This document shows, piece by piece, positions 56 to 30,442 of a DNA stretch of 30,728 bases. The notes beneath the pieces are model-generated. The model saw nothing but the letters and a program-made list of their open reading frames with translations. It was not told the DNA's origin and searched no databases. How positions within the stretch are numbered: the first letter of the stretch is position 1; each line of letters begins with the position of its first letter. The DNA is from Oscillospiraceae bacterium (GTDB taxonomy: Bacteria > Bacillota_A > Clostridia > Oscillospirales > Ruminococcaceae): positions 1 to 30,728 of the forward strand of contig JAFWUX010000109.1 of assembly GCA_017523995.1 (NCBI GenBank), written 5' to 3'. Made by a program: the position numbers and the translations under genes.

Positions 56-3000
56 TCAAATTACAAACTGTAATTTGTCACAAAATGTTAGAAAAAATTT
101 TGGAGAAGACGTTGTCGAAGTTGTAGTAGCCTTCTTCGTTGTAGAAGTTGTTGTGGTAGTGGTCTTCTTCGTTGTAGAAGTTGTGGTTGTAGTTGTGGTA
201 GTGGTGGTCGATGTGGTGGTAGTTGTAGTGGTGGTTGTGGTAGTAGTAGTGGTGGTGGTTGTAGTGGTGGTTGTAGTAGTTGTTGTTGTGGTGGTAGTAG
301 TTGTGGTGGTAGTTGTTGTAGTAGTAGTGGTCGGGGTTGTGGTGGTCTGTGTCACGTTGTAGACATTGACCATCGTGCCCTCGACATTGTAATAGCCTGC
401 GTTTTCATCGGCAGACTTCGCGGTCTTTGCCGTGGTATCAGCCTTGACAGTTGCAAGACCGTCCTTGCCGATGGTGAATACCAGCGAGCCCGCTGCTGCG
501 ATGTAATTCTTGGAAGTCGGAGCGCCGGATTCCTTGAGTTCATACTTGCCCTTGACAAGACCGCTGATTGTCAGCGCGCCCTTGCCGGAGGAAACAAATG
601 TCAGCGAAGCAGCATCGTCAGCACCCTTCGCGATAACCTTGTTGCCGTCCTTGACAACCACGCGGCTGTCGAGCTTGACCTTCGGATCCTTGGAAGTCAG
701 AACGAAGGTTGCGCCCTCGAGGTGGGTGATCGTGTTATCCGAATCATCCTTCTTGTTCAGCTGGAAGGCATAGCGCTTCTGCTCATCCTTGATGACCAGC
801 GTCTTGCCTGCGTCCTTGGTTTCGATGTGGGACTTTGCGAACTTCTCTGCTTCTGCGCGTTCCTCGGCGGTCATTTCTGCGACATCGCCGTCGGTCTTTG
901 CATCGTAGGAATCAACCTTGCCGTTCTTGACAACGAAGGTGAACTCTGTCACGGTGATGTCATATTCGACACCGTCCTTTTCCTTCGGCGGAGCAGTCTC
1001 TGTCAGACGGTAGGTGCCGTCGCTCAGAGAGGAGATATCGACCTTGCCGCCCTTGAAGGTCAGCTTCTTGCCGTTGATGTCCGCCTTTTCGAGCATGGTC
1101 ATCGAGGCAACCTCGCCGGCCTTTGCATTGACGCGGACTGTGTACTCTCTGCCGTCAGAGAGGCTGATGACATAAGTGCCGTCACAGAGACCTGCAATCA
1201 CGAGCTTGTCGCCGGTGATGCTGCCGCCGTACACATAATCGTTCTGGCGCGGTGCAGCTGCGTCATCGTTCAGGACATTTGCATTTCTCTGAATATCCTC
1301 AGCATTGCTGCCAACCTTAACGTGCTGGAAGGTGTTGCCGCGGATTTCAAAGGCCTCTGCATCTTTCGCATCAATGATGACGACCTTGTCATTGTTGTCA
1401 TTGCCGTCTTCATCGTGATCGACCTTTGCGGTGATGCCTTCTGCGCTCGTGCCGCTCTTGCTGACTGCAAGATTGCCGAGCTCAACAGGCTTGTTGTCAT
1501 CGCCGAGCTTTTCGAGGGTAAAGGTTGCATCCTCAAGGGAGTTGCCGCCCATATCCTCTTTGCTGATGGAAAGCGTGACCGATTCGTCGGTCAGGGTAAT
1601 GGTATCATAGTTGTTCTCGGTATCGTCCTTGCCGACGGTCTCGAGCTTGCCGGTTTTTGCATTGCGCTTGACGCTGAAGGTTCTTTCCGTCGGAAGGAAT
1701 CCGAGCGGAGTTTCTACTTCTTTAATAGTATAGTCGCCTTCCGGCAGTCCGGTGAAGACTACCGCGGAGCCGATGGATCTCCAGCGATATACTGCTGCGT
1801 CAGAAGACTCGTTCCGGATCAGGTTCTCATCATCCTGCAGCAGATAGTTCGTGCCGTTGTTTCTGCCGGAGCCGTCTGCAACGAAGAACTGGCTGTCGCG
1901 CGCCTTGACCTTCGAGAGGTCGATCGGATCGCCGTCAGCATTCTTGCCGCTCAGTTCAAGAACTGCGCCCGGAATCGGCATATCGTCCTTGTTGACCTTT
2001 CTGATGCCGACCGAGTAGATCGAGTCATAAACCGTCACGGTATAAGTCGAAGTCCCCTCTGCCTTGCTGATGCCGACCGGAGCCGGATTCGTGTTATTCG
2101 CATCCGCATATACGCCGGTGACGCCGGAATTGGAAATATTGATCTTTACCGGCTCAATCGGCTGATAGCGCTCCGGAGCGGAATCCTCCTCGAGGAGATA
2201 ATCGCCGTTCGGAAGATTGCTGAATTCGATATCGGTATCAACAACCGTCCAGCTGATAGACTTCTTGGTTGCTTCATCGAGGACAGGCTTGCCCTCAGCC
2301 TCGGATTTCTTTCCGTCAAGGTTTGAGGTTACCTTTTCCAGCGTACCCTCGTCCTTGTAGGTCAGCTTCAGCTTCGCACCGGTGATCTTCTCGCCGCTGC
2401 GGACTGTGGAATAGTTATCCTTGGTAACAGTGCCGAGCTTGTAGCCGTCAGATGCCTTTGTGAAGGCGATCTTGTTCTCGACAGCCTTTGCCTTGTTCGG
2501 CAGCTTGACGGTCACGGTTGTGCCGTTCTCGTCGATCTGGATTTTCGGATTGCCGACCCATGCCGGTGTGCCTGCGCACTGATATACCGCATCGCTGACT
2601 GCAAAAGAGCCGTCATTGTAATACTGATGAACCTCAGCCTTTGTCAGCGTGACCGGTTCTGCGTAGGTCAACATGAGCGTGCCCTTCGCAGCATCATACT
2701 CAGCGGTCAGGTCGCCTTCTGTAACGATATCGGTCGGGAACCTGCCGATGTTCGCATCAACCACTTCTCCATCTGCGTTCTTATAAGTAGTATAGACCGC
2801 ATCCGGACGCATTGTCGATTTTACGGTGACGCTCTTGACATTCTCGACCTTGTTGCTTTCCTCTGCAGAAAGCTGATTGCCTTCTTCATCGCAGAGGATG
2901 TAGAAGTTGGCAGCTGTCTTTTCAAAGACATCCGCTTTAATGGTGTTCGGTGCGCCGACCGTAACAGTCTGGTCAGCGTTGACGGTGAAGTACTGCTTGA

Positions 3001-9568: not shown

Positions 9569-11752
9569 ATGATTACCTATCTCGAAGAAGCAGGACAGTT
9601 TCAGCTTGACACACCGAACGCCAGCTATGTACTGACACTTGCAGATGAGGGTTATCTGCTGCACACCTACTGGGGAAAGCGCATCGCGCCGCAGGATCTC
9701 AGCGATCTGCTGCGGCTGAACGATCCGCCGTTTGTCCCCTCAAAAAATGAGCGCGAGCGTGCGAGCTTTATGGACTGCGCACCGTTTGAATACCCCTGCG
9801 CAGGCATCGGCGATTACCGCGAGGCGGCGTTCTGTCTCCAGAACGAACACGGCGCACGCGCATGTGATCTGCGCTATGTCAGCCACCGCATCTACAACGG
9901 CAAATACAATCCGCGTGCGATCCCGCACACATGGGGCAACGGCTGCGAATCGCTCGATATCAAAATGATCGACGCGCCGACCGGTGTCGAGGTCACGCTG
10001 CATTACACGGTATTCGAGGGCATCGACGCGATCATCCGCAGTGCCACGCTGGAGAACTGCGGCAACCGCGATGTTACGCTGGTACGCGCTTTTTCGGCAT
10101 CCGTCGATCTCGACGACGACCGCTTTGAGATGATCTCACTCTACGGCTCATGGGCGCGTGAACGGCAGGCAGAGCGTCTGCCGCTGCGCCACGGCAAACA
10201 GCGCCTCGACAGCGGACGCGGCGAGTCCTCGCATCAGTACAGCCCGTTTTTCGCGCTGGTCCGCCCCGAGACAACCGAGCAGCAGGGCGAAGCCTACGGT
10301 TTCACGCTGATCTGGTCGGGCGATTTCACCCTGCAGGCGGAGCTGACGCAGTTCTGCCAGACCAGAGCCCAGATCGGCGCACAGACCGACGATTTCCTCT
10401 GGTGTCTCAGCACGGAATCCGAATTTGATACGCCCGAGGCGGTGCTGGTTTACAGCGCGGACGGCATCGGCGCGATGTCGCGGGCATTCCACAAGCTGTT
10501 TTCCGATCACCTGATCCGCTCCGATTACCGCTATATCGAGCGGCCGGTGCTCATCAACAACTGGGAAGCGACCTACTTCGACTTCAATCTTGAAAAACTG
10601 AAAACCATCGCGGATGAAGCCGCAAAGCTCGGCATTGAGCTGTTTGTGCTCGATGACGGCTGGTTCGGCAGACGCGACAGCGATAACTGCTCGCTCGGCG
10701 ACTGGACCCCCGACGAGCGCAAGCTCCCCGGCGGACTGAAACCGCTGACCGACCACATCACCGGAAAAGGGATGCAGTTCGGGCTCTGGTTTGAGCCGGA
10801 GATGATCTCACCGGACAGCGACCTGTTCCGTGCACATCCGGATTATGCGATCGGCATTGAGGGCAGAGCGCGCACGCAGTCCCGCGCACAGTATGTGCTG
10901 GATTACTCTCGCCGCGATGTCCGTGATGCAGTCTGGGAGCAGATGAAGAAAATCCTCGATTCTGCGCCGATCTCATACATCAAATGGGATATGAACCGTC
11001 AGCTGACCGAGGAGCCGTATGCAGGCTACTCGCTCGAATATATGCGCGGCGTTTATCAGATGCTCGAGCGGCTCGTGACCGAGTATCCGGATATCCTGCT
11101 CGAAAGCTGCTCCGGCGGCGGTGCAAGATTTGATCCCGGCATGCTCTATTATTCGCCGCAGATCTGGGCTTCGGACGATACCGATGCAAAGGAGCGTCTG
11201 CGGATTCAGCACGGCGCATCGCTCTTTATGCCCCCTGCCGCGATCGGCTCGCATGTCAGTGTATGCCCGAACCACGCGACCGGCAGAGTGACGCCCTTTG
11301 AGACGCGCGCAAATGTCGCGATGTTCGGCACATTCGGCTATGAGCTCGATGTGACGCAGCTTTCCGAGGAGGAGCGCGCACAGATTCCGGAGCAGATCGC
11401 GCGCTGGCACAGCATCAGCCGTCTGGTGCGCGACGGCAGTCTGTGGCGGCTCGGCAATCCGTTCCGCCCGTCAGGCTATGCCGCACAGCAGAATGCGGAC
11501 TATGACGCATGGATCTTCGTATCTGCTGACAAATCCGAGGCGGTGTTCACCTATGTGCAGATCACGGCAGAAGCGAATATGAAGTCGCGCCGGATTCTGC
11601 TCGCAGGGCTTGATCCCGATGCGGATTATGCGTACACGATCCGCGGCACGGAGGATATCAAATCCGGCGCCTATCTCATGCAGTGCGGCGTCATGATCCC
11701 GAACCTCTGGGGCGACATGCAGTCCGTCCAGACCACACTCCAAAAACTCTGA
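9569..11752 (+). CDS. GH36 alpha-galactosidase
   Basis: 727 residues, standard for the large bacterial GH36 enzymes (AgaA/RafA type). It releases alpha-linked galactose from raffinose-type sugars and galactomannan fragments; no signal peptide, so cytoplasmic. The N-terminal beta-supersandwich covers about 1-320, then a TIM barrel begins with PVLINNWEATYFDF. Substrate-site motifs include DDGWFGRR (362-369) and LWFEPEM; the nucleophile is D474 in IKWDMNR and the acid/base is likely D536 in ASDDTD. The ESCSGGGARFDPG segment is also typical. GGGGGA precedes the ATG by 7 nt. Operon neighbours are the propeptide-like lipoprotein 33 bp upstream and a GH74 gene downstream, beyond a palindromic element. 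Confidence 0.95.
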   Translation: MITYLEEAGQFQLDTPNASYVLTLADEGYLLHTYWGKRIAPQDLSDLLRLNDPPFVPSKNERERASFMDCAPFEYPCAGIGDYREAAFCLQNEHGARACDLRYVSHRIYNGKYNPRAIPHTWGNGCESLDIKMIDAPTGVEVTLHYTVFEGIDAIIRSATLENCGNRDVTLVRAFSASVDLDDDRFEMISLYGSWARERQAERLPLRHGKQRLDSGRGESSHQYSPFFALVRPETTEQQGEAYGFTLIWSGDFTLQAELTQFCQTRAQIGAQTDDFLWCLSTESEFDTPEAVLVYSADGIGAMSRAFHKLFSDHLIRSDYRYIERPVLINNWEATYFDFNLEKLKTIADEAAKLGIELFVLDDGWFGRRDSDNCSLGDWTPDERKLPGGLKPLTDHITGKGMQFGLWFEPEMISPDSDLFRAHPDYAIGIEGRARTQSRAQYVLDYSRRDVRDAVWEQMKKILDSAPISYIKWDMNRQLTEEPYAGYSLEYMRGVYQMLERLVTEYPDILLESCSGGGARFDPGMLYYSPQIWASDDTDAKERLRIQHGASLFMPPAAIGSHVSVCPNHATGRVTPFETRANVAMFGTFGYELDVTQLSEEERAQIPEQIARWHSISRLVRDGSLWRLGNPFRPSGYAAQQNADYDAWIFVSADKSEAVFTYVQITAEANMKSRRILLAGLDPDADYAYTIRGTEDIKSGAYLMQCGVMIPNLWGDMQSVQTTLQKL

Positions 11753-20985: not shown

Positions 20986-21579
20986 ATGAGTGATCAAAAA
21001 CGCCGCGTCGCGGTCTGCCCGGGCAGCTTCGATCCGGTTACATACGGGCATCTGGATATCATCAGCAGAGCCGCGAAACTCTTTGACAAGGTGATCGTGC
21101 TCGTTTCCGCAAATCTCGAAAAACGCCCCGTCTTTACCTTGACAGAGCGTCTGCTCATGATCGAAAAGGTGACAACGGGCTTTGATAATATCGTCATTGA
21201 CATTCTGGAGGATGAGCTCCTCGCAGATTATGTCCGCAGAGTGGGCGCGCATGCGATCGTCAAAGGTCTGCGCGCTGTCACGGATTTTGAATATGAGTTT
21301 CAGATGGCGCTGGGCAACAAAAAGCTGTTTCCGGGCGCAGAAACCGTGTTCCTGACAACCGCTGCGGAGAATATGTATCTCAGCTCCAGCATTGTCAGAC
21401 AGATCGCCACACTGGGCGGCGATATCAGCAGCTTTGTTCCGCCGGAGATTCTCTCCGTCATCATGGAGCGGCTGTACACAAACAAGAAGCATTCACCTTC
21501 CGGCGGAACTGCCAGTGAGCAGGAACTCCGGCAGGTGCAGCAATTTGCAAACGCAATCGGAAAGGAAGAATCAGAATGA
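20986..21579 (+). CDS. coaD: Phosphopantetheine adenylyltransferase CoaD
   Basis: 197 residues. It makes dephospho-CoA from 4'-phosphopantetheine and ATP, the fourth step of CoA synthesis. Nucleotidyltransferase motifs are present: CPGSFDPVTYGHLDI with the T/HxGH signature, VKGLRAVTDFEYEFQMA, and SSSIVRQIA (the ISSTxxR equivalent). The family is usually about 160 residues; here about 35 extra residues follow FVPPEIL...LYTNKK, charged and low in structure. AAAGGA lies before the ATG. Its stop overlaps the next start (ATGA), coupling it to the coiled-coil gene. Confidence 0.95.
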   Translation: MSDQKRRVAVCPGSFDPVTYGHLDIISRAAKLFDKVIVLVSANLEKRPVFTLTERLLMIEKVTTGFDNIVIDILEDELLADYVRRVGAHAIVKGLRAVTDFEYEFQMALGNKKLFPGAETVFLTTAAENMYLSSSIVRQIATLGGDISSFVPPEILSVIMERLYTNKKHSPSGGTASEQELRQVQQFANAIGKEESE

Positions 21580-22019
21580 GCGTATTTGATGTTCTTGACG
21601 AAATGGATGACCTTCTGGATAACGCGAAGGTGTTTCCGCTTGCCGCACACAAGATCGTCATTGACGGAGACCGCTTCCGCGAGCTGGTCAATGATATCCG
21701 CCTCAACATGCCGAAGGAGATGAAGCGCGCACAGACCATCGACTATGACTGCGACCGCATCATGAAAGAGGCACAGACCAATGCGGAAAAGATCATCCGC
21801 GGCGCTGAGGAGCGTGCAAAGGCACTCGTTGCGGAGAATTCGATCGTTGAAGAAGCCAAAAAGCGCGCCCACGAAATCCTTGCAAAGACCAAGACCAAGT
21901 GTGAGGATACCAAGGATGCAACCTCTGCATACGTGCTGCAATCCCTGACCGCGACAGAATCCAAGCTCAATGAGCTGATGCAGGATCTCAAGCGCGAAAA
22001 GAGCAATTGGGAAAAGTAA
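21576..22019 (+). CDS. Coiled-coil protein encoded next to coaD
   Basis: 147 residues. From about residue 50 to the end the sequence is an almost unbroken heptad-rich helix, with IMKEAQTNAEKIIRGAEERAKALVAEN-like segments reminiscent of DivIVA or ATPase stalk subunits. The N-terminus (MSVFDVLDEMDDLLDNAK) is short and conserved-looking. Such proteins regularly follow coaD in Clostridia, where they are often loosely named ATPase; I see no nucleotide motif. It overlaps coaD by 4 nt and the VanZ-like gene by 13 nt. Confidence 0.8.
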   Translation: MSVFDVLDEMDDLLDNAKVFPLAAHKIVIDGDRFRELVNDIRLNMPKEMKRAQTIDYDCDRIMKEAQTNAEKIIRGAEERAKALVAENSIVEEAKKRAHEILAKTKTKCEDTKDATSAYVLQSLTATESKLNELMQDLKREKSNWEK

Positions 22020-22540
22020 TCAGGCAGAACCGCGGACTGCTCTTCTGTGCGCTGCTGACACTCCTCTGGATGGGGATGATCTTCTGGTTTTCCGCGCAGA
22101 ATGCGGATGACTCAGGAGACATGAGCGGCAGCCTGCTCAAAATGCTGCTTTCGATCGTAGTTCCGCACTGGAAAGCGCGCTCTGCCGCCGAACAGCTTGC
22201 GATCATGGAAAAGCTGCACACAATCTTTCGGAAGTGCGGTCATTTCTCGGAGTATACAATCCTCGGGATTCTGCTCAGGGCGACATTCCGCCGGATTCCG
22301 AAGTTCATATCAGACAGCCGGCAGGCGATTCCGAAAAGGAGCATAATACTGCCGGCGCTTTGTGCGTTGCTCTATGCCTGCTCCGATGAGTTTCATCAGC
22401 GGTTTGTGCCCGGCAGAAGCTGCGAGCTGCGCGATGTCTGTATTGATTTCGGCGGCGCGTGTCTCGGCATCCTGCTCAGCATCCTCTGCCTCAAACTCAC
22501 CGGGTGGGTGCGAAAAAAGGTATCTCCGATGGATCAATAA
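22007..22540 (+). CDS. VanZ-like family membrane protein
   Basis: 177 residues with about four hydrophobic segments. VanZ-like motifs are clear: WFSAQNADDS, KCGHFSEYTILG (the KxxHxxEY signature) and SDEFHQRFVPGRSCELRDVCIDFGG. Family members can give low-level glycopeptide resistance in some contexts, but most have unknown roles. The TTG at 22007, overlapping the upstream gene, is the most likely start because the first hydrophobic segment begins soon after; its ribosome site (AAAAGAG) is weak. It is the last gene before the repeat-rich tail-to-tail spacer. Confidence 0.85.
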   Translation: MGKVIRQNRGLLFCALLTLLWMGMIFWFSAQNADDSGDMSGSLLKMLLSIVVPHWKARSAAEQLAIMEKLHTIFRKCGHFSEYTILGILLRATFRRIPKFISDSRQAIPKRSIILPALCALLYACSDEFHQRFVPGRSCELRDVCIDFGGACLGILLSILCLKLTGWVRKKVSPMDQ

Positions 22541-22596
22541 TGGGGGCTGCGCGCCCCCAACCCCCTCGCTGGGGATAGTATCCCCAGACCCCATGT
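22541..22596 (-). repeat. G/C-rich REP-like unit (copy 2, inverted) with two palindromes
   Basis: Begins directly after the VanZ stop. It holds TGGGGGC-TGCGC-GCCCCCA (22541-22559) and GGGGATA-G-TATCCCC (22571-22585). Its reverse complement is related to the unit at 20168-20198. The GC-rich palindromes may stabilise or end transcripts. Confidence 0.6.
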
Positions 22597-22618
22597 TTAT
22601 GTTGAAATAATATAAAGC
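22572..22618 (+). repeat. 47-bp direct repeat, copy A
   Basis: Identical over 47 bp to 22784-22830; it starts GGGATAGTATCCCC and ends AATATAAAGC. The copies are 212 bp apart, suggesting a tandem duplication of a unit made of GC-rich palindrome, AT-rich linker and hairpin. Confidence 0.85.
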
Positions 22619-22716
22619 TGCTCAAATTCACGTAAATCGGGTGGCTTTTCCTATTATGAAAATTGCTGTTTATCAGGGATAGCCCTTAAGAATCCCATTT
22701 TATGCATCAATATAAA

Positions 22717-22756
22717 AAAGCCGCTGAATTGATCGTCCTGACAATTCGGCGGTTTT
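22717..22756 (+). terminator. Hairpin terminator in the tail-to-tail spacer
   Basis: CCGCTGAATTG (22721-22731) pairs with CAATTCGGCGG (22742-22752) with one G-T pair; flanking AAAAG and TTTT extend it and give T-runs on both strands, so it can act in both directions. Confidence 0.75.
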
Positions 22757-22783
22757 GATATTGGAGCCGCGCACGGCGCGGTC

Positions 22784-22830
22784 GGGATAGTATCCCCAGA
22801 CCCCATGTTTATGTTGAAATAATATAAAGC
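22784..22830 (+). repeat. 47-bp direct repeat, copy B
   Basis: Exact second copy of 22572-22618, again followed by an AAAGC(C/T)GCT hairpin start. In copy B the following hairpin is perfect; after copy A it is decayed. Confidence 0.85.
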
Positions 22831-22865
22831 CGCTGAATTGAACGTCATGCCAATTCAGCGGCTTT
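22826..22865 (-). terminator. Perfect 15-bp bidirectional terminator hairpin
   Basis: AAAGCCGCTGAATTG (22826-22840), 10-nt loop, CAATTCAGCGGCTTT (22851-22865). It lies 28 bp beyond the radical SAM stop and ends the minus-strand YGPP operon; the A/T ends allow action from both sides. Confidence 0.85.
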
Positions 22866-22892
22866 CTATTTGTTGATGCGCGCAGCGCGGTA

Positions 22893-23969
22893 TCAGTCGA
22901 ACAGGACTTCCTTGAAGCAAACCTGCGGACAGTTGTTGTCAAAATCCCATGTGTGATAAGCGTCGCCGTGGCAGTATTTTGCCTCCTTGCAGTTGCGGCA
23001 CTTCTCATTTTCAAGGCTCAGATCCTTGCGGAAAATCTCGAACTTGTTTTCCCAGACATCCTTGAAATGCTCAGTCAGGACATTGCCCTGAATGAACTCC
23101 GGACGGCGCTCGATATCGAGACATGCCGTGATATCGCCGTTGACCATGATGCTCGCGGTGTAAAGTCCGGCGGTGCAGAGGAAGTACCAGTCGCGCACCT
23201 CGCGCTCATATTCCATGCCGAGATAGTGGCTGCAGCCATAGCAGACAGGCTCGCCGGCAATGCGCTTGTTGCGGATGTACTCGAACAGGGTCTTGTAATC
23301 CTCTTTTGTCAGCAGCAGCTCCGGATGCTCCTTTGCTCTGCCGATCGGATCCATATTGATGACACGCCACGAATCAATGTCCACATCCTTGAGGATGTTG
23401 TAGAGGTCATCAAGCTCGACGATGTTCTTGTGCGTGACAACTGTTGTCACCTGAATCGACTGGAAACCGCCGATCTTGATGAGGTTCTTGACGCCCTGCA
23501 TGCCGCGCTCCCAGCCCTGCGGTGTCCGGCGGAATGCATCGTGCGTTTCCGGCATGCCGTCGAGACTGATCGAAATGGTCTTCATGCCGCAGTCCTTGAG
23601 CTTCTGCGCGACCTCCTCGGTAATCAGTGTGCCGTTGCTCGTCATGCCCCAGTTGAAGCCGAGCTCGTTTGCGTGCCCCATGATCTCAAAGAAATCCTTG
23701 CGCAGCAGCGGCTCGCCGCCGGTGATGCAGAGCATGTAGCCCTCGGTGCCGAGATCGGCTTTGAGCTGATCGAGGACGCCGCACCACTGCTCCGTGGTCA
23801 TCTCCTCCGAGGGGACATCGCCGCAGCTCGAGCCGCAGTGCAGACAGCGCTCGTTGCAGCGGAGTGTCAGCTCAAAAAAGAGATTGTGAATCTGCGGCAT
23901 TGCCTTGAGACCTTCGCGGTAAACAGCAAGGCGCTGCATATTTTGTTCTTTCAGTTTCGTGTTCAGCAT
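22893..23969 (-). CDS. Radical SAM/SPASM enzyme of the YGPP array
   Basis: 358 residues. The radical SAM cluster motif is CNERCLHC (Cys38, Cys42, Cys45), followed by ITGGEPLLR (SAM-binding GGEP at 84-87). The C-terminal SPASM region has Cys243, Cys246, Cys265, Cys283, Cys324, Cys327, Cys333, Cys347 and Cys351, enough for auxiliary Fe-S clusters. SPASM enzymes mostly modify ribosomal peptides (thioether, C-C crosslink, cyclophane, epimer). The start at 23969 is chosen because AGGAG lies 6 nt upstream; the ATG at 23988-23990 lies beyond that site. It is the last gene of the array of YGPP proteins, 60 bp after the sixth, so these are its likely substrates. The chemistry cannot be read from the sequence. 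Confidence 0.92.
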   Translation of the reverse strand: MLNTKLKEQNMQRLAVYREGLKAMPQIHNLFFELTLRCNERCLHCGSSCGDVPSEEMTTEQWCGVLDQLKADLGTEGYMLCITGGEPLLRKDFFEIMGHANELGFNWGMTSNGTLITEEVAQKLKDCGMKTISISLDGMPETHDAFRRTPQGWERGMQGVKNLIKIGGFQSIQVTTVVTHKNIVELDDLYNILKDVDIDSWRVINMDPIGRAKEHPELLLTKEDYKTLFEYIRNKRIAGEPVCYGCSHYLGMEYEREVRDWYFLCTAGLYTASIMVNGDITACLDIERRPEFIQGNVLTEHFKDVWENKFEIFRKDLSLENEKCRNCKEAKYCHGDAYHTWDFDNNCPQVCFKEVLFD

Positions 23970-24029
23970 AGTGTTCTCCTGTCGAATCATATATATTTTG
24001 GCGGATCACGCCGCCGGTTGTTGAGATGC

Positions 24030-24860
24030 TCAGTACGCAGTCGGCGGACCGTAAAGCGGCATCGGAATATCCAGATACGGATCGGTAGTTGTCTCAGACC
24101 GCGGCGGAACGGTCGCATCGGTTGCGGTTGTGGTGACATCCGTTTCATCCGGATCTTTTTCGGGGGCGCCCGTCAGGCGGCGGATCATCTCCTTGACATC
24201 CGCCTTATCCAGCTTGCCGTCTTCATTCAGATCGCCGAGGCGGCGGGTCGCCTCATCATAAGAATCGTTGAGGACCGCACGCTTGAGCAGGCTCAGATCT
24301 GCTGCGTTCAGCTTTTTGTCATAGTTTAAGTCGCCTTCTTCAAACAGCACCCACGGCGGACCGTAAAGCGGCGCATTCGTCATGACCGGCATGGTGGTAG
24401 TTGTGATATCGGTGACCGGTGCAATCGTCTCATCCCAGCTCGGCGGACCATAAAGCGGCACAACCGTCATGATCGGCATGGTGGTGGTTGTGGTGTCGGT
24501 GACCGGTGCAATCGTCTCATCCCAGCGCGGCGGGCCATAGAGCGGCACTTCCGTCATGATCGGCAACGCCGTGGTTGTGGTGTCGGTGATCGGTGCAATC
24601 GTCTCATCCCAGCGCGGCGGGCCATAGAGCGGCACGGCTGTCAGGAACGGGTTTTCTGTTGTTGTCGCAGCAGGCTCCGTCTCAGAAAACCAGCTTGGCG
24701 GACCGTAGACATCCTGCGGTTCGGTTTCGGTCAGGCGGGTCAGATCGTCTTCAGCGGGCGCTGCGGATGCATTCGGTGCGGTTGCAAGACCGCCGGCAGA
24801 TGTTGTGACCGCGGCGGCGAACATCGCAGCCGTTAAAAGTGAGTGCAGTGATTTTTTCAT
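24030..24860 (-). CDS. Secreted YGPP-repeat dockerin protein 6 (four-unit repeat)
   Basis: 276 residues. A Sec-type signal peptide (MKKSLHSLLTAAMFAAAV...) is cleaved near residue 22-35. Six YGPP motifs start at Y52, Y79, Y108, Y137, Y166 and Y270; the four at 79-166 lie exactly 29 residues apart in tandem repeats PLYGPPRWDETIAP + Thr-rich spacer. Most read YGPP-x-W. A type I dockerin at about 176-230 has two calcium loops (GDLNYDKKLNAADL and GDLNEDGKLDKADV). A Thr-rich linker leads to the end LYGPPTAY. The protein should be exported and bind a cohesin. The signal is nearly the same as in the upstream paralogue, indicating recent duplication. GAGGAA precedes the ATG. The function of YGPP is unknown to me; it is the likely target of the radical SAM enzyme. 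Confidence 0.88.
   Translation of the reverse strand: MKKSLHSLLTAAMFAAAVTTSAGGLATAPNASAAPAEDDLTRLTETEPQDVYGPPSWFSETEPAATTTENPFLTAVPLYGPPRWDETIAPITDTTTTALPIMTEVPLYGPPRWDETIAPVTDTTTTTMPIMTVVPLYGPPSWDETIAPVTDITTTTMPVMTNAPLYGPPWVLFEEGDLNYDKKLNAADLSLLKRAVLNDSYDEATRRLGDLNEDGKLDKADVKEMIRRLTGAPEKDPDETDVTTTATDATVPPRSETTTDPYLDIPMPLYGPPTAY
24361..24621. repeat. Three 87-bp tandem repeat units in the last YGPP gene
   Basis: Units start at 24361, 24448 and 24535 with CCRTARAGCGGC and continue with GTCATGA-CGGCA, Thr codons, and GGTGCAATCGTCTCATCCCAG; a partial fourth follows. Each encodes one 29-residue YGPP module. High identity suggests recent expansion. Confidence 0.9.
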
Positions 24861-24887
24861 GTGTTATTCCTCTATTTCGTCTTCGTT

Positions 24888-25595
24888 TCAGTTCCATGCA
24901 GACGGCGGTCCGTAAAGCGGCATCACAGTGGTTGTGATCGTTGTATCTGTTGTGGTGTCAGTCACGACAGCAGTCGTCGTCTCCTCAGGAAGCTCCTCAT
25001 CCTCAGGTCTGCCGGTCAGTCTGCGGATCAGCTCCTTGACATCCTTCTTGTCAACCGCCCCGTCATAGTTGAGATCGCCGAGCGGCCGCCAGAGGCTGTC
25101 GAGATTATCAAAGAGAACCGCACGCTTGAGCAGCGTAAGATCCTGTGCATTGATGACGTGGTCGCCGTTCAGATCGCCCTTTTCAAACAGGACATAGGGC
25201 GGACCGTATGCCGGCTGCGGAATTTCCGCAGTCACATCTGTTGTTGTGGTGGTTATGGCTTCGGTTTCCGTATCAGAAAACCAGTGCGGCGGGCCGTAAA
25301 CGGACGGCGGGTCATTTCTTGTGACGTCAGTCATTGTTTCTGTTTCAGAAAACCAGCCCGGCGGGCCGTAGACATCCTGCGGTTCCGTTCCGGTTATATC
25401 CGTCAGTTCAGATTCATTTGTGAACCATTCCGGCGGACCGTACACGCACTGCGGCTCGGTGGTGGTCTCCGTAATCAGATCATTTTCAGCGGGTGCTGCG
25501 GATGCATTCGGTGCATTTGCAACGCTGCCCGCAGATGTTGTGACTGCAGCGGCAAACATTGCAGCTGTTAAAAGAGAGTGCAGTGATTTTTTCAT
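24888..25595 (-). CDS. Secreted YGPP-repeat dockerin protein 5
   Basis: 235 residues. The signal peptide (1 to about 22-35) is almost identical to that of the downstream paralogue. Five YGPP motifs start at Y52, Y76, Y100, Y130 and Y228; the first three read VYGPP-x-WF followed by acidic Ser/Thr spacers with a 24-residue period. A dockerin covers about 139-194 (GDLNGDHVINAQDL, GDLNYDGAVDKKDV). A Thr-rich linker leads to the end LYGPPSAWN. The gap to the next gene is only 27 bp, so co-transcription is very likely. The role is that of an exported, scaffold-binding protein, probably modified on its YGPP sites. A lone Cys at residue 50, just before the first motif, is unusual. Confidence 0.88.
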   Translation of the reverse strand: MKKSLHSLLTAAMFAAAVTTSAGSVANAPNASAAPAENDLITETTTEPQCVYGPPEWFTNESELTDITGTEPQDVYGPPGWFSETETMTDVTRNDPPSVYGPPHWFSDTETEAITTTTTDVTAEIPQPAYGPPYVLFEKGDLNGDHVINAQDLTLLKRAVLFDNLDSLWRPLGDLNYDGAVDKKDVKELIRRLTGRPEDEELPEETTTAVVTDTTTDTTITTTVMPLYGPPSAWN

Positions 25596-25622
25596 CGGAA
25601 TCCCCTCTGTTTCGTCTTCGTT

Positions 25623-26147
25623 TCAGTTCCATGCAGGCGGCGGGCCGTAGAGCGTACAGGTAGTTGTGTTTGTGGTTATTACATCTGTTGTGGTAATCTC
25701 AGTTACCGTGGTTGTGGTCTCCTCACCGGTTTGCTCCTTCACGGGCTTGCCGGTCAGTTTGGTGATCATCTTCTGCACGTCCTTTTTGTCCACAACCCCA
25801 TCCTGATTCAGGTCGCCGAGCGCCTGCCGCGTTACGAGTCCGTTGCTGCCCCATGACCAGACTTCGATCTTGCCGTCATGGTTCGTATCAATTACTTCTC
25901 CAAGATCAATGCTGCCTTCGCTGTTCAGCAGCATGCGCTTGAGATCGGATAAATCACGCGCATCAATGCACTCATCTTCATTCATGTCACCGATCCAGCG
26001 GTCAACCGGCGGCGGACCGTAAAGCGGTGCCATATATTCACCGGGTGCATTGGAAAGCGCAGCCTCCTGCGCAGATGCAGAAAGCGCTGAAACCGCTGAT
26101 GCAGAAAACATCGCGGCTGTCATAAGTGTTTGCAGTGTTTTTTTCAT
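25623..26147 (-). CDS. Secreted YGPP dockerin protein 4 with three EF-like loops
   Basis: 174 residues. Signal peptide MKKTLQTLMTAAMFSASA, mature start near residue 27. Only two YGPP motifs: one right before the dockerin (Y43 in APLYGPPPVDRW) and one at the end (Y167, LYGPPPAWN). The dockerin (about 53-132) is longer than usual: besides GDMNEDECIDARDL and GDLNQDGVVDKKDV it has a third calcium-loop-like DTNHDGKIEV between them. That insert could change cohesin binding. GGGAG precedes the ATG, and the gap to the next gene is 27 bp. Confidence 0.85.
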   Translation of the reverse strand: MKKTLQTLMTAAMFSASAVSALSASAQEAALSNAPGEYMAPLYGPPPVDRWIGDMNEDECIDARDLSDLKRMLLNSEGSIDLGEVIDTNHDGKIEVWSWGSNGLVTRQALGDLNQDGVVDKKDVQKMITKLTGKPVKEQTGEETTTTVTEITTTDVITTNTTTCTLYGPPPAWN

Positions 26148-26174
26148 TGAGCTCCCTCTCCCTCATTTTTCGAT

Positions 26175-26816
26175 TCAGTTCCATGCCGGCGGCGGGCCGT
26201 AGAGCACCATGTAGGTCGGGGATGTGACATCAGTTGTTGTTTCCGGCGGCGGCGGCATGGTCGGGAGCGTTGTGACCTGTGTTTCCTCTCCGTCCTCCTC
26301 CTCGGGTCTGCCGGTCAGAAGCCGGATCAGTGCCTTGACGTCTTTTTTATTGACGCTGCCGTCCTCATTGATATCAATGGTGTGATTTGAAAATCCCACG
26401 CCGTCAAGCTGATAGAGCAAAAACTGCTTAAGTATCGTCAGATCGCGCGCATCCAGACTGCCGTCGAAGTTTAGATCGCCCTTCTCGCTGAAAATCACCG
26501 GGTCCCCTGCCAGTTCCAATTCCTGTTCCGCCGTGGTCACATAGGGCATGATGTCTCCGGCAAGCGCCACTTCCTCGTTTGTTGCGGTGGTTGTTTCCTC
26601 AATCGGATACACCACCATTTCGCCCTGCGGAACCAGCGGGTCATCCGCTTCATTTGTTGTCCTCGTCAGAGCCGGCGGTCCATAGGTTGTCTGCGGCACA
26701 ACCGTGATATCATTCTCTGCACTTGCAAGCTCTGCCAGAACGGTACCTCCGGCTGCCGCTGATACGGTCGCGGCAAACACTGCCGCAGTCATCAGAGAAT
26801 GCATCGTTTTTTTCAT
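26175..26816 (-). CDS. Secreted YGPP dockerin protein 3
   Basis: 213 residues. Signal peptide MKKTMHSLMTAAVFAATVSAAAGG. One YGPP after the signal (Y45, QTTYGPPALTR) and one at the very end (Y206, LYGPPPAWN). Between them lie an acidic/Thr-rich spacer (about 50-112) with two ALAGD/ELAGD segments, and a type I dockerin (about 113-169: GDLNFDGSLDARDL, then DINEDGSVNKKDV). It shares its plan with the neighbours. A large hairpin separates it from the upstream gene, whose stop lies 99 bp away. Function is inferred as for the other array members. Confidence 0.85.
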   Translation of the reverse strand: MKKTMHSLMTAAVFAATVSAAAGGTVLAELASAENDITVVPQTTYGPPALTRTTNEADDPLVPQGEMVVYPIEETTTATNEEVALAGDIMPYVTTAEQELELAGDPVIFSEKGDLNFDGSLDARDLTILKQFLLYQLDGVGFSNHTIDINEDGSVNKKDVKALIRLLTGRPEEEDGEETQVTTLPTMPPPPETTTDVTSPTYMVLYGPPPAWN

Positions 26817-26852
26817 CCTGATTCACTTCCTTTCCCATTGAAACTGCAATCC

Positions 26853-26903
26853 GAAACGCCTGCGGTGCGGCAGCGGTACATCAGCCGCACCGCGGACGGT
26901 TTC
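26853..26903 (-). promoter_or_regulatory. Large hairpin between YGPP genes 2 and 3
   Basis: GCGGTGCGGC and GCCGCACCGC form a perfect 10-bp core, extended by GAAAC...GTTTC arms with a few mismatches. There is no T-run after it in the direction of transcription, so it is more likely an RNA stability or attenuation element than a terminator. Confidence 0.5.
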
Positions 26904-26915
26904 ATTCCATTGTAA

Positions 26916-27656
26916 TTACTGCCATGCAGGCGGCGGACCGTAAAGCGGGCAGATCGTTGTGACCGTTGTGGTGGTCTCCGGATAGATGGGATACCCCGTC
27001 ACATCGGTCTGCTGCGGTTCCTCATCCTCGCTCTCGGGCTTGCCGGTCAGAAGGCGGATCAACGCCTTGACATCCTGCTTGTCGAACTTGCCGTCCAGAT
27101 TGACATCCAGATTTTCTGCATAGCTCTGGAGATCGCCGTTTGCAAGCAGATACTGCTTGAGCAGCGAAACATCGCGCGCATCCAGACTGCCGTCCTGATT
27201 GGTGTCGCCGGGCTCGTGATAGATCGACATTACGCCGCCTGTCACCAGCTCACCATCCGGAATCGGCGCGGTTCCGTCGAGACCGACTGTTGTGCAGGTT
27301 GTAGTTGTTGTATCCTGCGGGACCGGCGCAGTGCCTGCAAGGCCGAGTGTGGTTGCAATCGGGATCACGGATGTTCCTGCGAGTGCAAGCGTCGAAGTTG
27401 CTTCTGTGGTCGTTTCAGGATAGAACGGTGCGGTGCCGTCCGGAACGAGCGTCTGCTCGGTTTCCTCGGTGGTCAGCATCATCTCCGGCGGACCGTAAAC
27501 CGGCTGCGGGAGCATAGTTGTGACTTCACCGCCCAGATAATCCAGTTCCGCGCCGAACGAAACACTCTGCGCTGAGGAGAGCGTATCATTCGCACCGGCA
27601 CCGAGTGCCGCTGCAAAAACCGCGGCAGTCATAATTGTTTGAACTGTTTTTTTCAT
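26916..27656 (-). CDS. Secreted YGPP dockerin protein 2
   Basis: 246 residues. Signal peptide MKKTVQTIMTAAVFAAALGAG. The first YGPP lies at Y54 (QPVYGPPEMM), followed by Thr-rich spacers with three LAGT/LDGTAPIP-type short repeats (about 85-130), a type I dockerin (about 143-202: GDTNQDGSLDARDV, DVNLDGKFDKQDV) and the end LYGPPPAWQ (Y239). AGGAGG lies 6 nt before the ATG, the strongest ribosome site in the array. The end of the array's upstream lipoprotein gene lies 137 bp away. Confidence 0.85.
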   Translation of the reverse strand: MKKTVQTIMTAAVFAAALGAGANDTLSSAQSVSFGAELDYLGGEVTTMLPQPVYGPPEMMLTTEETEQTLVPDGTAPFYPETTTEATSTLALAGTSVIPIATTLGLAGTAPVPQDTTTTTCTTVGLDGTAPIPDGELVTGGVMSIYHEPGDTNQDGSLDARDVSLLKQYLLANGDLQSYAENLDVNLDGKFDKQDVKALIRLLTGKPESEDEEPQQTDVTGYPIYPETTTTVTTICPLYGPPPAWQ

Positions 27657-27793
27657 GCATTGCCTCCTGTGCTTACATGCTGTCTGCTTCCGGCGCGGCT
27701 GTTCTCTGCGGCACCGGAGCCACTGTTTCAGGGATATTAAGGATGCATGCTTTGCGCTGTATGCCCGAAGCGGCCGGAACGTCTGTGCCGCAG

Positions 27794-28036
27794 TTATGGT
27801 GCGGATTCCGCCTTTTCCTCTGCGGGGGATGCAACAGATTCCTCTGCCTCCGGCTCAGCGTCGGCAGGCGGCGGACCGTATACATCCTGCGGCTCTTCCG
27901 TCACGGACTGCATTCCGGATTGCGTCTGCAGAGAAGAAGGGGGACCGTAAACACTTACGGGTTCTGTGCAGCCGCTCAGCGAAAGCATCCCGGCACAAAA
28001 TGCAGCTTGAACCGCGCGTTTCTTCTGAATTTTCAC
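27794..28036 (-). CDS. YGPP lipoprotein 1, first gene of the array, no dockerin
   Basis: 80 residues, GTG start with GGGAGG 8 nt upstream. Basic start and lipobox LSGC (Cys23) make it a lipoprotein. Two YGPP motifs (Y30, Y53) lie in a short acidic tail; the first is VYGPPSS and the second VYGPPPAD, both preceded by Val or Asp-Val as in the dockerin proteins. There is no dockerin and no C-terminal YGPPxAWN. It may be a membrane-tethered form or partner of the secreted proteins. It is the first gene after the consensus promoter. The 137 bp after its stop still reads protein-like in another frame (ending ETVAPVPQRT...), so a truncation is possible. Confidence 0.75.
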   Translation of the reverse strand: MKIQKKRAVQAAFCAGMLSLSGCTEPVSVYGPPSSLQTQSGMQSVTEEPQDVYGPPPADAEPEAEESVASPAEEKAESAP

Positions 28037-28078
28037 TCAGACCGCCTCCCGTTCCTGTCAATTTGGCTATACACTTTT

Positions 28079-28107
28079 ATTATAGCATGTTCGCCAGATA
28101 TTGTCAA
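28079..28107 (-). promoter_or_regulatory. Perfect consensus promoter of the YGPP/radical SAM operon
   Basis: TTGACA (28107-28102), 17-nt spacer, TATAAT (28084-28079) on the minus strand, an exact sigma-A consensus. Expected start near 28072 gives a leader of about 35 nt before the GTG at 28036. Confidence 0.9.
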
Positions 28108-28248
28108 GAATCGAAGCCGAAATTTAAGAAATACGCAATCGGGGCTGTATTTTCTGCCTTCTAATATATCTGACCAGAAACCGCACAGAAAGGTTACACG
28201 AAAATTTGGATTTTTCTGATATTTTCGCAAATTTATTCCTCGCATATG

Positions 28249-28284
28249 AAAACGCCCCGAAATGACCGCTGTCACTTCGGAGCG
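28249..28284 (-). terminator. Terminator after the MreB-like gene
   Basis: 14-bp stem with two G-T pairs and an AGCG loop (28284-28253), followed by TTTT. It separates the mreB-like gene from the YGPP operon promoter. Confidence 0.85.
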
Positions 28285-28302
28285 TCGCTTGATTCTGTTC
28301 GC

Positions 28303-29313
28303 TCAGGACTGGGTATATGCGTCGATGCGCTCGAATCCGTCGAGCAGGATATCGCGGCGTGTGAATGCCTTTTCCGTACCGCGTGCCACACAGGTCAGCG
28401 GGTCCTTCGCCGTGCGGCAGGAGACGCCGAGCATACGGGTCAGATAAGGCTCCAGACCGCCGAGCAGCGCGCCGCCGCCCGTCAGCAGAATGCCGTTTGC
28501 GCAGATATCCCCGACAAGCTCCGGCGGTGTTTCCTCCAGCACGCGCCGGATCGTCTCGCCGATTTCGTTGATATCATCCTCAAGCGCCTCGGAAAGCTCC
28601 GCTTCGCTCAGGTCGCACTGATCCGGCAGACCGCGCGAGATATTGCGCCCCTTGACCTGCGCAATCACATCCTCAGCCGGATTATAGAGATTGCAGAGCG
28701 TTTTTTTCACCTGCTCCGCGGATTTTGCACCGAGCAGAATCTGATATTTGTTCTGCACATAGCGGATGATCGACTGATCGAATCTGTTGCCCGCGATTTT
28801 CAGCGAGCGCGCCGTCACGATGCCGTTCATCGAAACCACAGCGATATCCGTTGTGCCGCCGCCGATATCCACAACCATGTGTCCGACAGGGCGGTTGATC
28901 GAGATGCCCGCGCCGAGCAGTGCGGCGAGCGGCTCCTGAATCAGATGCACCTTGCGCGAACCGGTGCTCATCGCTGCATCAAGGATTGCACGCTTTTCCA
29001 CATCCGTGATCAGGGAGGGGACGCAGATGACAATGCGCGGCTTGATGATGCGCGCACCTGCGACCACATCAATCAGCTCACGGATGAGCGCCTGCGTCAG
29101 AATATCATCCGAGATGACGCCGTCCTGCAGCGGATGCACAACCGCAATATACTTCGGCGAGCGCCCCTCCATTTTATAGGCTTCCTCTCCGACGGCGACA
29201 ACACGCTCCGTGCGCTTGTTGAAGGCGATCACCGAGGGCTCGTTCAGCACAACGCCCTTGCGGCGCTTCGTGATAATGATATTCGCCGTACCGAGGTCAA
29301 TTCCGATATCCAT
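28303..29313 (-). CDS. MreB/Mbl rod-shape determining actin-like protein
   Basis: 336 residues, standard length. Bacterial actin that polymerises under the membrane and guides lateral cell-wall synthesis. Motifs: phosphate-1 DLGTANIII (6-14), EPSVIAF, phosphate-2 DIGGGTTDIAVV (around 166-177), and adenosine motif LLTGGGALLGGLEPYL. Which paralogue (MreB, Mbl or MreBH) cannot be decided; no mreC or mreD is adjacent, so a stand-alone Mbl-like gene is plausible. GGAAGGA precedes the ATG. It ends with its own terminator. Confidence 0.92.
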   Translation of the reverse strand: MDIGIDLGTANIIITKRRKGVVLNEPSVIAFNKRTERVVAVGEEAYKMEGRSPKYIAVVHPLQDGVISDDILTQALIRELIDVVAGARIIKPRIVICVPSLITDVEKRAILDAAMSTGSRKVHLIQEPLAALLGAGISINRPVGHMVVDIGGGTTDIAVVSMNGIVTARSLKIAGNRFDQSIIRYVQNKYQILLGAKSAEQVKKTLCNLYNPAEDVIAQVKGRNISRGLPDQCDLSEAELSEALEDDINEIGETIRRVLEETPPELVGDICANGILLTGGGALLGGLEPYLTRMLGVSCRTAKDPLTCVARGTEKAFTRRDILLDGFERIDAYTQS

Positions 29314-29378
29314 AATGAATCCTTCCCGCGGAGTATGGCTCCGCTGCGTTTTGTTTCTCCTGTGTTCTGTTTCTGTTT

Positions 29379-29933
29379 TTATGACTGCGCGGCATCCCGT
29401 TCGATGCAGTAGCAGATTTCGCCCTCCGGCGATTCGCCTGCACGCCTGAACCGCTCAACTGTCTCTGTCCGGTGCATAGCGGATTTTTGCAGCACGCGCC
29501 CCGATTTCGGGTTTGCCGCGCGGTGATAGGCTTCGAGCTTTGCAAAGCCCGTCTGCGCAAATGTCCACATGATGACAGCCGCAAGCGCCTCGCCTGCATA
29601 GCCGTGTCCCCAGAAATCTGCGCCGATGCAGTATTCGATCTCGGCGGTTTTGCAGTCCGCCCAGACCTTGCAGAACGCAATCATCCCGATGTTCTGCCCC
29701 GATGCGCGTTCAACGATTGCCCAGCGGTAGAAATCCGGCTGCGCATAGCCTGCAAGATACGTTTGCAGCAGACTTTGCACGGCATCCGGTGTTTCATAGG
29801 TCGGCTCGCCGTATTCATGCTGCACATCCGGATCAGATGCCCAGTTTTGCAGCATATCGGCGGCGTTCTCCGGCAGAAAGCGGCGCAGGATCAGCCGCGG
29901 CGTTTCGATTGTCTTTGTGCCGCAGTGCTTCAT
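29379..29933 (-). CDS. GNAT acetyltransferase, RimJ/RimL type
   Basis: 184 residues. Opens with TIETPRLILRRF, the usual RimJ/L start, and has acetyl-CoA motif FWGHGYAGEAL (a Q/RxxGxG/A variant) followed by AYHRAANPKSGRVLQKSAM, the typical ANxxSxxvLeKxGM region. RimJ/L relatives acetylate protein N-termini or small molecules; the substrate here is not visible. The ATG at 29933 overlaps the upstream stop (ATGA), favouring coupling; an in-frame ATG at 29948 is the alternative. It forms a pair with another GNAT gene. Confidence 0.85.
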   Translation of the reverse strand: MKHCGTKTIETPRLILRRFLPENAADMLQNWASDPDVQHEYGEPTYETPDAVQSLLQTYLAGYAQPDFYRWAIVERASGQNIGMIAFCKVWADCKTAEIEYCIGADFWGHGYAGEALAAVIMWTFAQTGFAKLEAYHRAANPKSGRVLQKSAMHRTETVERFRRAGESPEGEICYCIERDAAQS

Positions 29934-30442
29934 TCCGCGAGTCTCCATTCCATTTCGGTGAATTTCGAGTTCTTCACGCGGAATCCGATTTTTTCGTAGA
30001 TGCTTTTGCCCATATCACTTGCGGAGAGCGTCACCTGATCGAGCCTGCGTTCTTTTGCCGCATCCTGAATCAGCTGCATCATGCGTGTGGCGATGCCTTT
30101 GCCGCGATATCCGGGCTCTGTGAAAACGCCGAGGACATAGCCCGTCCTGCCGTTCGGGAAGAACGGATTTGCCGGTTTCTCCTCGATCATCAATATAGCG
30201 TTTGCGATGAGCGCGCCCTCCGGTGTCTCTGCCGCTGCAACGATGCAGTCAGCCCCGAGATGCGCTGCAAAATAGTCCGGCAGCTGTGCCGCGATCGCCG
30301 AAAGCTGCTCCGCAGGCAGATCCCCGAATTCCTCATCAAAATATGCAAGCCGCAGTCTGCACAGCGCAGGGATATCCTGCTGCTCTGCCATACGAATCTG
30401 AATCTCCGTTTCTGCCGCCTCCTTCCGCGTCTGCTCATACAT
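29930..30442 (-). CDS. GNAT acetyltransferase
   Basis: 170 residues at the ATG used here. The acetyl-CoA motif is FTEPGYRGKGIATRMM, the Q/RxxGxG/A signature in RGKGIA, and the end with YEKIGFRVKNSKFTEMEW matches the usual GNAT C-terminus. The substrate is unknown. The promoter's -10 box lies only 5 nt before this ATG, so the mRNA would be leaderless; AGGAGG lies inside the ORF (about codon 7), raising the chance of a later, non-ATG or downstream start. Its stop overlaps the next GNAT gene. Confidence 0.75.
   Translation of the reverse strand: MYEQTRKEAAETEIQIRMAEQQDIPALCRLRLAYFDEEFGDLPAEQLSAIAAQLPDYFAAHLGADCIVAAAETPEGALIANAILMIEEKPANPFFPNGRTGYVLGVFTEPGYRGKGIATRMMQLIQDAAKERRLDQVTLSASDMGKSIYEKIGFRVKNSKFTEMEWRLAE

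Follow-up and report, generated by a model that had tools for sequence, protein, structure and literature searches.

The DNA analyzed here is a 30,728-nucleotide stretch from an Oscillospiraceae bacterium (contig JAFWUX010000109.1), called the window at its full length, and it carries an operon in which a radical S-adenosylmethionine (SAM)/SPASM enzyme is encoded together with six YGPP-containing proteins, here called carriers. Seven open reading frames (ORFs), all on the minus strand, lie between a promoter match at 28107 and a hairpin terminator at 22826. The promoter (TTGACA-17-TATAAT, with a 17-nt spacer and a TG before the -10 element; 28079..28107, minus strand) matches at 12 of 12 positions as read from the sequence; nine promoter-like sites were found against 4.9 expected in shuffles, and the other eight match at only 9 or 10 of 12. 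Carrier 1 (27794..28036) is an 80-aa protein with a GTG start, a lipobox-like LSGC, two YGPP motifs, no dockerin and no Pfam match. It is followed by carrier 2 (26916..27656; 246 aa, signal-peptide-like start, type I dockerin at residues 149-203, two motifs, one near the C-terminus), carrier 3 (26175..26816; 213 aa, dockerin at 112-167, two motifs), carrier 4 (25623..26147; 174 aa, dockerin in two matched stretches, the best at 53-94, two motifs), carrier 5 (24888..25595; 235 aa, best dockerin stretch at 139-193, five motifs) and carrier 6 (24030..24860; 276 aa, dockerin at 176-229, six motifs). The last gene (22893..23990) encodes the 365-aa enzyme, which is related to TIGR04133 and which we propose to modify the X-Tyr-Gly (XYG) part of the motif. 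The intergenic gaps along the operon are 137, 99, 27, 27, 27 and 39 nt. An intrinsic terminator-like hairpin of 16 pairs, followed by a weak T-run (22826..22865, minus strand), is the longest among the 14 terminator-like sites listed for positions 21500-30000.

The dockerin family PF00404 scores above its cut-off in five of the six carriers, and all six pass a crude signal-peptide pattern, by which alone signal peptides were judged. The carriers hold 19 YGPP motifs in all, and a six-frame translation of the window gave a single further occurrence, at 18339. A preliminary description of this DNA had reported a seven-gene minus-strand operon with promoter and terminator, encoding six YGPP proteins with 19 motifs and five type I dockerins; the layout and each of these counts were re-found.

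Scanning named genomes with the window enzyme yielded 58 loci whose enzymes are 47 to 97% identical to it. Record titles place most of them in Ruminococcus or Oscillospiraceae; a small number belong to Lachnospiraceae, and there are other Clostridia and a single Bacilli metagenome-assembled genome. Cultured strains of Ruminococcus flavefaciens with the locus include MC2020, MA2007, ND2009, ATCC 19208, YL228 and SAb67. At least one YGPP ORF lies directly upstream of the enzyme, on the same strand, in 54 of the 58 loci, which include near-copies in carrier layout (e.g. L040/L041, L002/L003 and L008/L009), so that counts are of loci and not of independent events. The four exceptions differ in kind. 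At L056 the contig stops 134 bases upstream of the match; L050 has no adjacent YGPP gene, yet carriers occur on other contigs of the same genome (G020); L048 also lacks an adjacent YGPP gene, carriers having been sought there at the locus; and L058 has, in place of YGPP, a downstream protein (11070-11744) with a weak, below-cut-off WXG100 match and repeated PKYGV, possibly a type VII secretion carrier of the motif. Downstream of the enzyme in L048 and L050 lies a large protein with dockerin-like ends, which we take to be a papain-like peptidase and which may be a target or partner. Across ORFs of at least 100 aa in the 58 loci, YGPP occurs 263 times, against 0-5 times for each of 11 permuted tetrapeptides. 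The carriers alone, which were picked for holding YGPP, contain it 324 times against 0-5. The association between the enzyme and YGPP is beyond chance.

The enzyme is rare. It was found in 7 of 157 genomes drawn evenly from the family of R. flavefaciens MC2020 (G005) and in 5 of 295 genomes of an order sample (both at an E-value of 1e-60). Two of the seven, G005 and G020, are also the genomes of loci L026 and L050, and the other five are new. YGPP genes adjoin the enzyme in six of the seven; the seventh, G020, has four YGPP genes on three other contigs, dockerin-like by eye. A profile of short carriers (alignment A3) matched 28 of the 157 genomes at an E-value of 0.01, including all seven with the enzyme, and the matched regions in the 21 enzyme-free genomes (14 + 7) hold no YGPP. 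By this profile search, which is biased towards carriers like the known ones, YGPP carriers thus occur in 7/7 genomes with the enzyme and 0/150 without. The preliminary description had treated the enzyme and the YGPP proteins as one system, to be doubted if YGPP proteins were widespread without the enzyme or if the enzyme sat beside unrelated genes; the 54 loci, the unlinked pair in G020 and the 150 enzyme-free genomes all bear out its view. A genome-wide count of YGPP codon patterns was uninformative, with matches in 156 of the 157 genomes, mostly fewer than for a reversed-pattern control, including in three of the seven enzyme-bearing genomes (G340, G378 and G416). Viral contigs gave eight weak partial matches to the enzyme.

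The motif is conserved well beyond its surroundings. The window carriers were compared with the best-matching proteins, each chosen for at least one YGPP, of 11 related loci. Of 836 positions in YGPP, 90 are gapped, and at the other 746 the residues are identical in 684, against 4395 of 9648 (46%) for other mature residues and 58% for the first 28 residues. In 303 of the 324 carrier motifs, Tyr is preceded by V, L, I, M or A. A carrier from G020 combines EYGIP, KYGAP, KYGIP, AYGAP and VYGPP. Because YG is retained in the carriers and the P positions are variable, the core of the motif is X-Tyr-Gly, mostly as YGxP, with a hydrophobic X.

The N-termini of the carriers are also alike (e.g. MKKTxxTxLTAAxFAAA). 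Of the 103 carriers with a signal-like start, 80 have TAAx(F/L) within residues 1-25, as do 12 of 381 other such ORFs from the same loci. This common start may be a recognition leader or may simply reflect common descent. With the scan loosened, 13 ORFs came up that begin in this way and contain no YGPP. Five of these (in L007, L009, L010, L023 and L047) are on the strand of the enzyme, no more than 5 kb upstream of it, and hold LYGPA, LYGPG, MYGAQ, LYGPV, LYGAP and LYGIK, and the remaining eight, which are farther away or on the opposite strand, look unrelated. Those in L007, L009 and L010 encode longer carriers that look dockerin-like, begin in the common way and have just one LYGPA or LYGPG, which may be a site that has departed from the YGPP form.

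The carrier set comprises 128 ORFs, and Pfam matches were counted on 125 after overlapping short ORFs of L028, L037 and L049 were dropped. Dockerins are present in 85 of the 125, window included, so the dockerin, which the preliminary description had made a defining part of the system, is not one. Only dockerin and EF-hand families were matched, apart from one Plug_translocon and one FG-GAP_3 match. Carriers without a dockerin include short lipoprotein-like proteins and the WXG100-like protein of L058, and those of L063 and L065 have, by eye, several membrane segments followed by a YGPP tail. Cohesins were found in 8 of the 11 related genomes tested, with 19 matches in G001, whose enzyme is 94% identical to that of the window. 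No cohesins were found in G015, G016 and G018, the genomes of L054, L055 and L058, where the carriers are dockerin-free by eye. The earlier suggestions that Tyr is modified before export and that dockerins anchor the products remain reasonable.

The enzyme scores above the Pfam cut-offs of PF04055 (80.9 vs 29.5 bits) and PF13186 (38.7 vs 21.5 bits). Its cluster motif, C45-x3-C49-x2-C52, is invariant in a 15-member alignment (A1, from which L026, with a stop codon in its stretch, was dropped and replaced by L025), as are seven of the nine Cys after residue 240 (253, 272, 290, 331, 334, 340 and 358); the CxxxCxxC and nine later Cys of the preliminary description are thereby confirmed. Its best family is TIGR04133 (rSAM_w_lipo), at 288.3 bits, under a 425-bit cut-off that was likewise reached in none of the 391 genomes of a class sample. 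TIGR04103, which we take to be the family of the "splicease" PlpX, gave 125 bits, far under its 725-bit cut-off, and TIGR04134, the lipoprotein partner of TIGR04133, matched none of the six carriers at an E-value of 0.01. As the cut-offs of TIGR04133, TIGR04134 and TIGR04103 were not reached, we treat the window system as a variant, probably splicease-like, and not as a member of these families. A review names IPR026482 in connection with PlpX (PMC11002830).

A predicted model of the enzyme (pLDDT 84.3) matched peptide-bound anSME best by Z (26.5; 3.1 Å over 316 residues), followed by SuiB (25.5) and ChlB (25.3). No structure named AhbD or MftC was among the 50 structural matches listed, which excludes neither. 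As far as the model goes, the SPASM fold held in common says nothing about which reaction is catalyzed. The 365-residue chain has no visible extension resembling a recognition element (RRE) for ribosomally synthesized and post-translationally modified peptides (RiPPs), which would agree with leaderless recognition of the motif.

Related enzymes reach well beyond the 58 loci. TIGR04133-like enzymes were found in 19 of the 391 class-sample genomes (20 loci; E-value 1e-50), with YGPP directly upstream in 13 of the 20. In L067, L068 and L069 a small exported-looking protein downstream carries MYGSP, LYGVP and AYGID, respectively, and the L066 partner, which contains GCGMYGPPPRSYY, scores above the TIGR04134 cut-off. 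The 315-aa proteins upstream of the enzymes in L082 (344-1291) and L085 (485-1432) carry arrays of KYGVP-like and LKYGYPCG repeats with no NCBIfam match at an E-value of 0.1; TIGR04103 is the best match of both enzymes (229.5 and 218.8 bits), below cut-off. Plasmid records added TIGR04133 enzymes from Parabacteroides (partner with CEYGSPHANF), Treponema (CYGMPENYY) and Phocaeicola (CEYGTPSADY, from an unannotated record), an Agathobacter enzyme whose short upstream ORF ends in VMYGTGVRM, and a Nostoc TIGR04103 locus whose Nif11 precursor ends in ALYGLPPELF.

We placed 51 of these and other radical SAM enzymes in a maximum-likelihood tree that did not include PlpX or AhbD. Forty-five form one group (99/96), apart from MftC, NirJ, TIGR04053, TIGR04347 and two unassigned enzymes. 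Within it, a TIGR04133-like branch (36 rows, 97/97) holds the window enzyme, and its sister consists of the TIGR04103, GDL and array enzymes (9 rows, 100/99). A second tree, from which 12 of the 51 rows were removed (the two unassigned enzymes and ten others), keeps the group (99/93). Most partners in view within the clade hold a YG motif, and YG motifs follow the enzyme clade over Bacillota, Bacteroidota, Spirochaetota and Cyanobacteriota, on very different carriers. The preliminary description had overlooked that the enzyme is akin to TIGR04133/TIGR04134 and TIGR04103, and also the XYG core with its hint of tyramine excision.

From the arrangement of the genes, their co-occurrence, the conservation of YG and the position of the enzyme in its clade, we infer that the motif is the target of the enzyme, and some enzyme-made change at the X-Tyr-Gly site is highly probable. 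As to the reaction, we propose tyramine excision, to which we give a probability of roughly 0.55, because of the clade kinship with TIGR04103 and an XYG core like that of PlpX substrates. PlpX has been described as excising tyramine at XYG, natively at MYG and LYG, with its RiPP leader dispensable, and the tag PIRPGYGLPI was spliced on an Affibody (PMC10533398, PMC11002830). A search with the Nostoc precursor returned 63 proteins including itself, with YG in the last 32 residues of 58 and YGxP in 32; X is L, I, M, A or V in 57 of 60 YG motifs in these Nif11 precursor tails. Among them is a precursor of Pleurocapsa sp. PCC 7319 with AVAAMYGVVFP, to which the published tag GAVAAGYGVVFPG corresponds save for an engineered Gly. 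The (V/L)YGPP of the window has the same anatomy as these cores.

On this proposal, the operon encodes an enzyme together with its six likely substrates. Like PlpX-type spliceases at X-Tyr-Gly, the enzyme would cut tyramine out at every (V/L)-Tyr-Gly-Pro-Pro site, in the cytoplasm and on the unfolded chain, and alpha-keto-beta-amino residues would thus form at (V/L)YGPP prior to export. Five of the six exported products would then dock on cohesins. In what is the weakest step, the products would serve as multi-headed alpha-ketoamide protease traps on the cellulosome, cell surface or membrane.

Several observations weigh against tyramine excision, beginning with the comparison itself. An XYG motif is not enough to guarantee splicing, since in the FtsZ test described for PlpX the reaction took place at only 2 of the 16 tag positions, and LYG forms were spliced in neither place tried (PMC10533398). 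PlpX is also described as working with an RRE-like partner, PlpY (PMC11002830). The window operon shows no PlpY-like gene, and a search of seven related genomes with the 71-aa ORF that neighbours the Nostoc enzyme, run without a positive control, gave no match. The Pro right after Gly differs from the PlpA cores (YGV and YGL). F, Y, W or M stands at the second to fourth residue after 210 of the 324 motifs, where about 27% would be expected (three positions at a 10% pool share), and a crosslink explains this aromatic residue or Met better than splicing does. The case for the reaction is one of analogy.

The placement of the enzyme has weak points as well. Its kinship with TIGR04103 comes from the trees only and not from hidden Markov model (HMM) scores, by which AhbD, NirJ2, MftC and TIGR04053 (153, 147, 143 and 131 bits) all outscore TIGR04103 (125), and PlpX itself is absent from the trees, its assignment to TIGR04103 being our assumption. 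The TIGR04133-like branch falls to 91/94 in the second tree, and MftC and NirJ sit on long branches in both. Foldseek puts SkfB, presumably a thioether-forming enzyme, first among structural matches. The enzymes of L083 and L084 belong to the YG clade but have no YG partner in view, the protein after them being, as we assume from its looks, a C39-type bacteriocin exporter. In the plasmid records, three of six small partner proteins at two DUF1843 loci hold YG and three hold YA or YM, and no partner was identified for a Tropicibacter enzyme. Finally, a role of the carriers as serpin-like protease traps of the cellulosome is something we only infer.

Another reaction at the same Tyr-Gly is a tenable but doubtful alternative. 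It could be a cyclophane or ether link, from Tyr to the Pro at +2/+3 or to the aromatic residue often found 5-7 positions on, oxidation at the Tyr C-beta, or a Gly-centred change. Triceptide motifs span three residues, the first aromatic and linked to the third. Y-G-P fits this length, and its third residue varies (P, A or I). Tyr-centred chemistry is on record for triceptide, dynobactin and mycofactocin radical SAM enzymes (PMC11002830, PMC8326336), and both the enrichment of F, Y, W or M after the motif and the ranking of MftC above TIGR04103 for the window enzyme agree with such a reaction. However, no second residue is invariant, YG being kept while the P positions vary; Trp falls within 8 residues after only 104 of the 324 motifs; and the partner peptides of the sister clade carry the XYG core of splicease substrates.

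It is improbable that YGPP serves for binding or sorting without being modified, that the substrate of the enzyme is something else, such as a small molecule or a heme precursor, and that the genes have no more than a regulon in common. Proline-rich motifs often act as ligands, and the closest functional HMMs after TIGR04133 include the heme-pathway enzymes AhbD and NirJ2. Against this, the enzyme and the carriers co-occur even when unlinked, as in G020; YG tracks the enzyme clade over four phyla on quite different carriers; and NirJ, the sole heme-pathway enzyme in the trees (AhbD was not included), falls outside the clade. Least credible is the Tyr-Trp crosslink (YGPPxW) on dockerin carriers suggested in the preliminary description. 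In its favour, many motifs of the window are followed by Trp (e.g. VYGPPSWFS and LYGPPRWDE), but 20 aligned short carriers have no Trp after theirs and, at 104 of 324, the crosslink is not supported as a general product.

Thioether chemistry, as in sactipeptides and ranthipeptides, was considered and rejected, as Cys is scarce in the carriers, with 63 in 21,449 mature residues and none in 82 of the 128, and there is no conserved core Cys.

The window system can be set beside several described ones. It resembles the TIGR04133/TIGR04134 pair, a sister branch of its enzyme in the trees, in having an exported partner with YGxP; unlike in the pair, each of its carriers has more than one motif, its operon encodes more than one carrier, and dockerins are present. 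With PlpX spliceases, whose leader is dispensable, it shares an XYG core with a hydrophobic X, often as YGxP, and a TIGR04103 enzyme stands in the sister clade. The window carriers differ in that they lack a Nif11 or NHLP leader and begin like signal peptides, and they are exported structural proteins with YGPP for YGV/YGL, whereas PlpX uses small natural-product precursors. The hallmark of spliceotides, tyramine excision with a mass change of about -135.07 Da, is for the window carriers a prediction by analogy.

The enzyme anSME, the closest solved fold by Z and solved with bound peptide, acts on a short motif of an exported protein with no RiPP leader. It turns the Cys or Ser of C/S-x-P-x-R into formylglycine, whereas the window motif centres on Tyr-Gly. 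MftC acts on the C-terminal Tyr of one small peptide and, unlike the window enzyme, falls outside the YG clade in both trees. This radical SAM enzyme is described as catalyzing oxidative decarboxylation and formation of a C-C bond from Tyr to Val (PMC8326336). The dockerin-bearing serpins of cellulosomes, to which the carriers may be functionally alike, differ in having a folded serpin domain and no radical SAM enzyme.

An alpha-ketoamide that follows Val or Leu and precedes Gly-Pro-Pro is similar to known inhibitors that bind serine and cysteine proteases covalently and reversibly. The splicing product has reportedly been exploited as a protease-inhibition moiety (PMC11002830), and dockerin-bearing serpins have been suggested to shield the R. 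flavefaciens cellulosome against proteolysis (PMC5301203). Crosslinking of the surface layer is an alternative role for the modified carriers. Tentatively, and at somewhat less than even odds, we envisage that rumen and gut Ruminococcus would edit the backbone of entire surface proteins, with a leaderless splicease that would act at nearly 20 YGPP sites per operon to give electrophilic alpha-ketoamide arrays (P1 Val/Leu) on dockerin proteins, lipoproteins and membrane proteins, forming a covalent protease-trapping or crosslinking coat over the cellulosome. On the same footing, XYG recognition would be ancestral to TIGR04133, TIGR04103 and the KYGxP-array enzymes, and non-canonical splicing would be widespread in gut Bacteroidota and Bacillota.

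Among the matches listed in the open-licence literature (a scope that leaves aside subscription papers and preprints), we found no YGPP carriers, no dockerin substrates of such an enzyme and no paper with both YGPP and radical SAM, and NCBIfam gives names without function for TIGR04133 and TIGR04134. If tyramine excision holds, radical SAM backbone splicing would extend to proteins that gut and rumen bacteria secrete or display on their surface, at several sites at once, and would no longer be limited to small natural-product precursors. The uncharacterised TIGR04133/TIGR04134 pair would gain a testable function, and leaderless, motif-directed enzymes would become available for installing ketoamides in proteins. 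It could also explain some dockerin proteins of unknown function in Ruminococcus flavefaciens, of which strain FD-1, outside the present genome set, is reported to have 118 proteins with unknown regions (PMC2930009).

Two kinds of repeated intergenic element lie downstream of the operon, one of 67 nt (22567-22633 and 22779-22845, 90% alike) and one of 84 nt (22699-22782 and 22808-22891, 74% alike), and the terminator hairpin of the operon sits within one copy of these repeats. Elsewhere in the window, a minus-strand ORF at 56-5527 encodes a surface-protein-like product of 1823 aa with a long poly-Thr stretch near its C-terminus, which we presume to be akin to collagen-binding or pilin-like repeat proteins.

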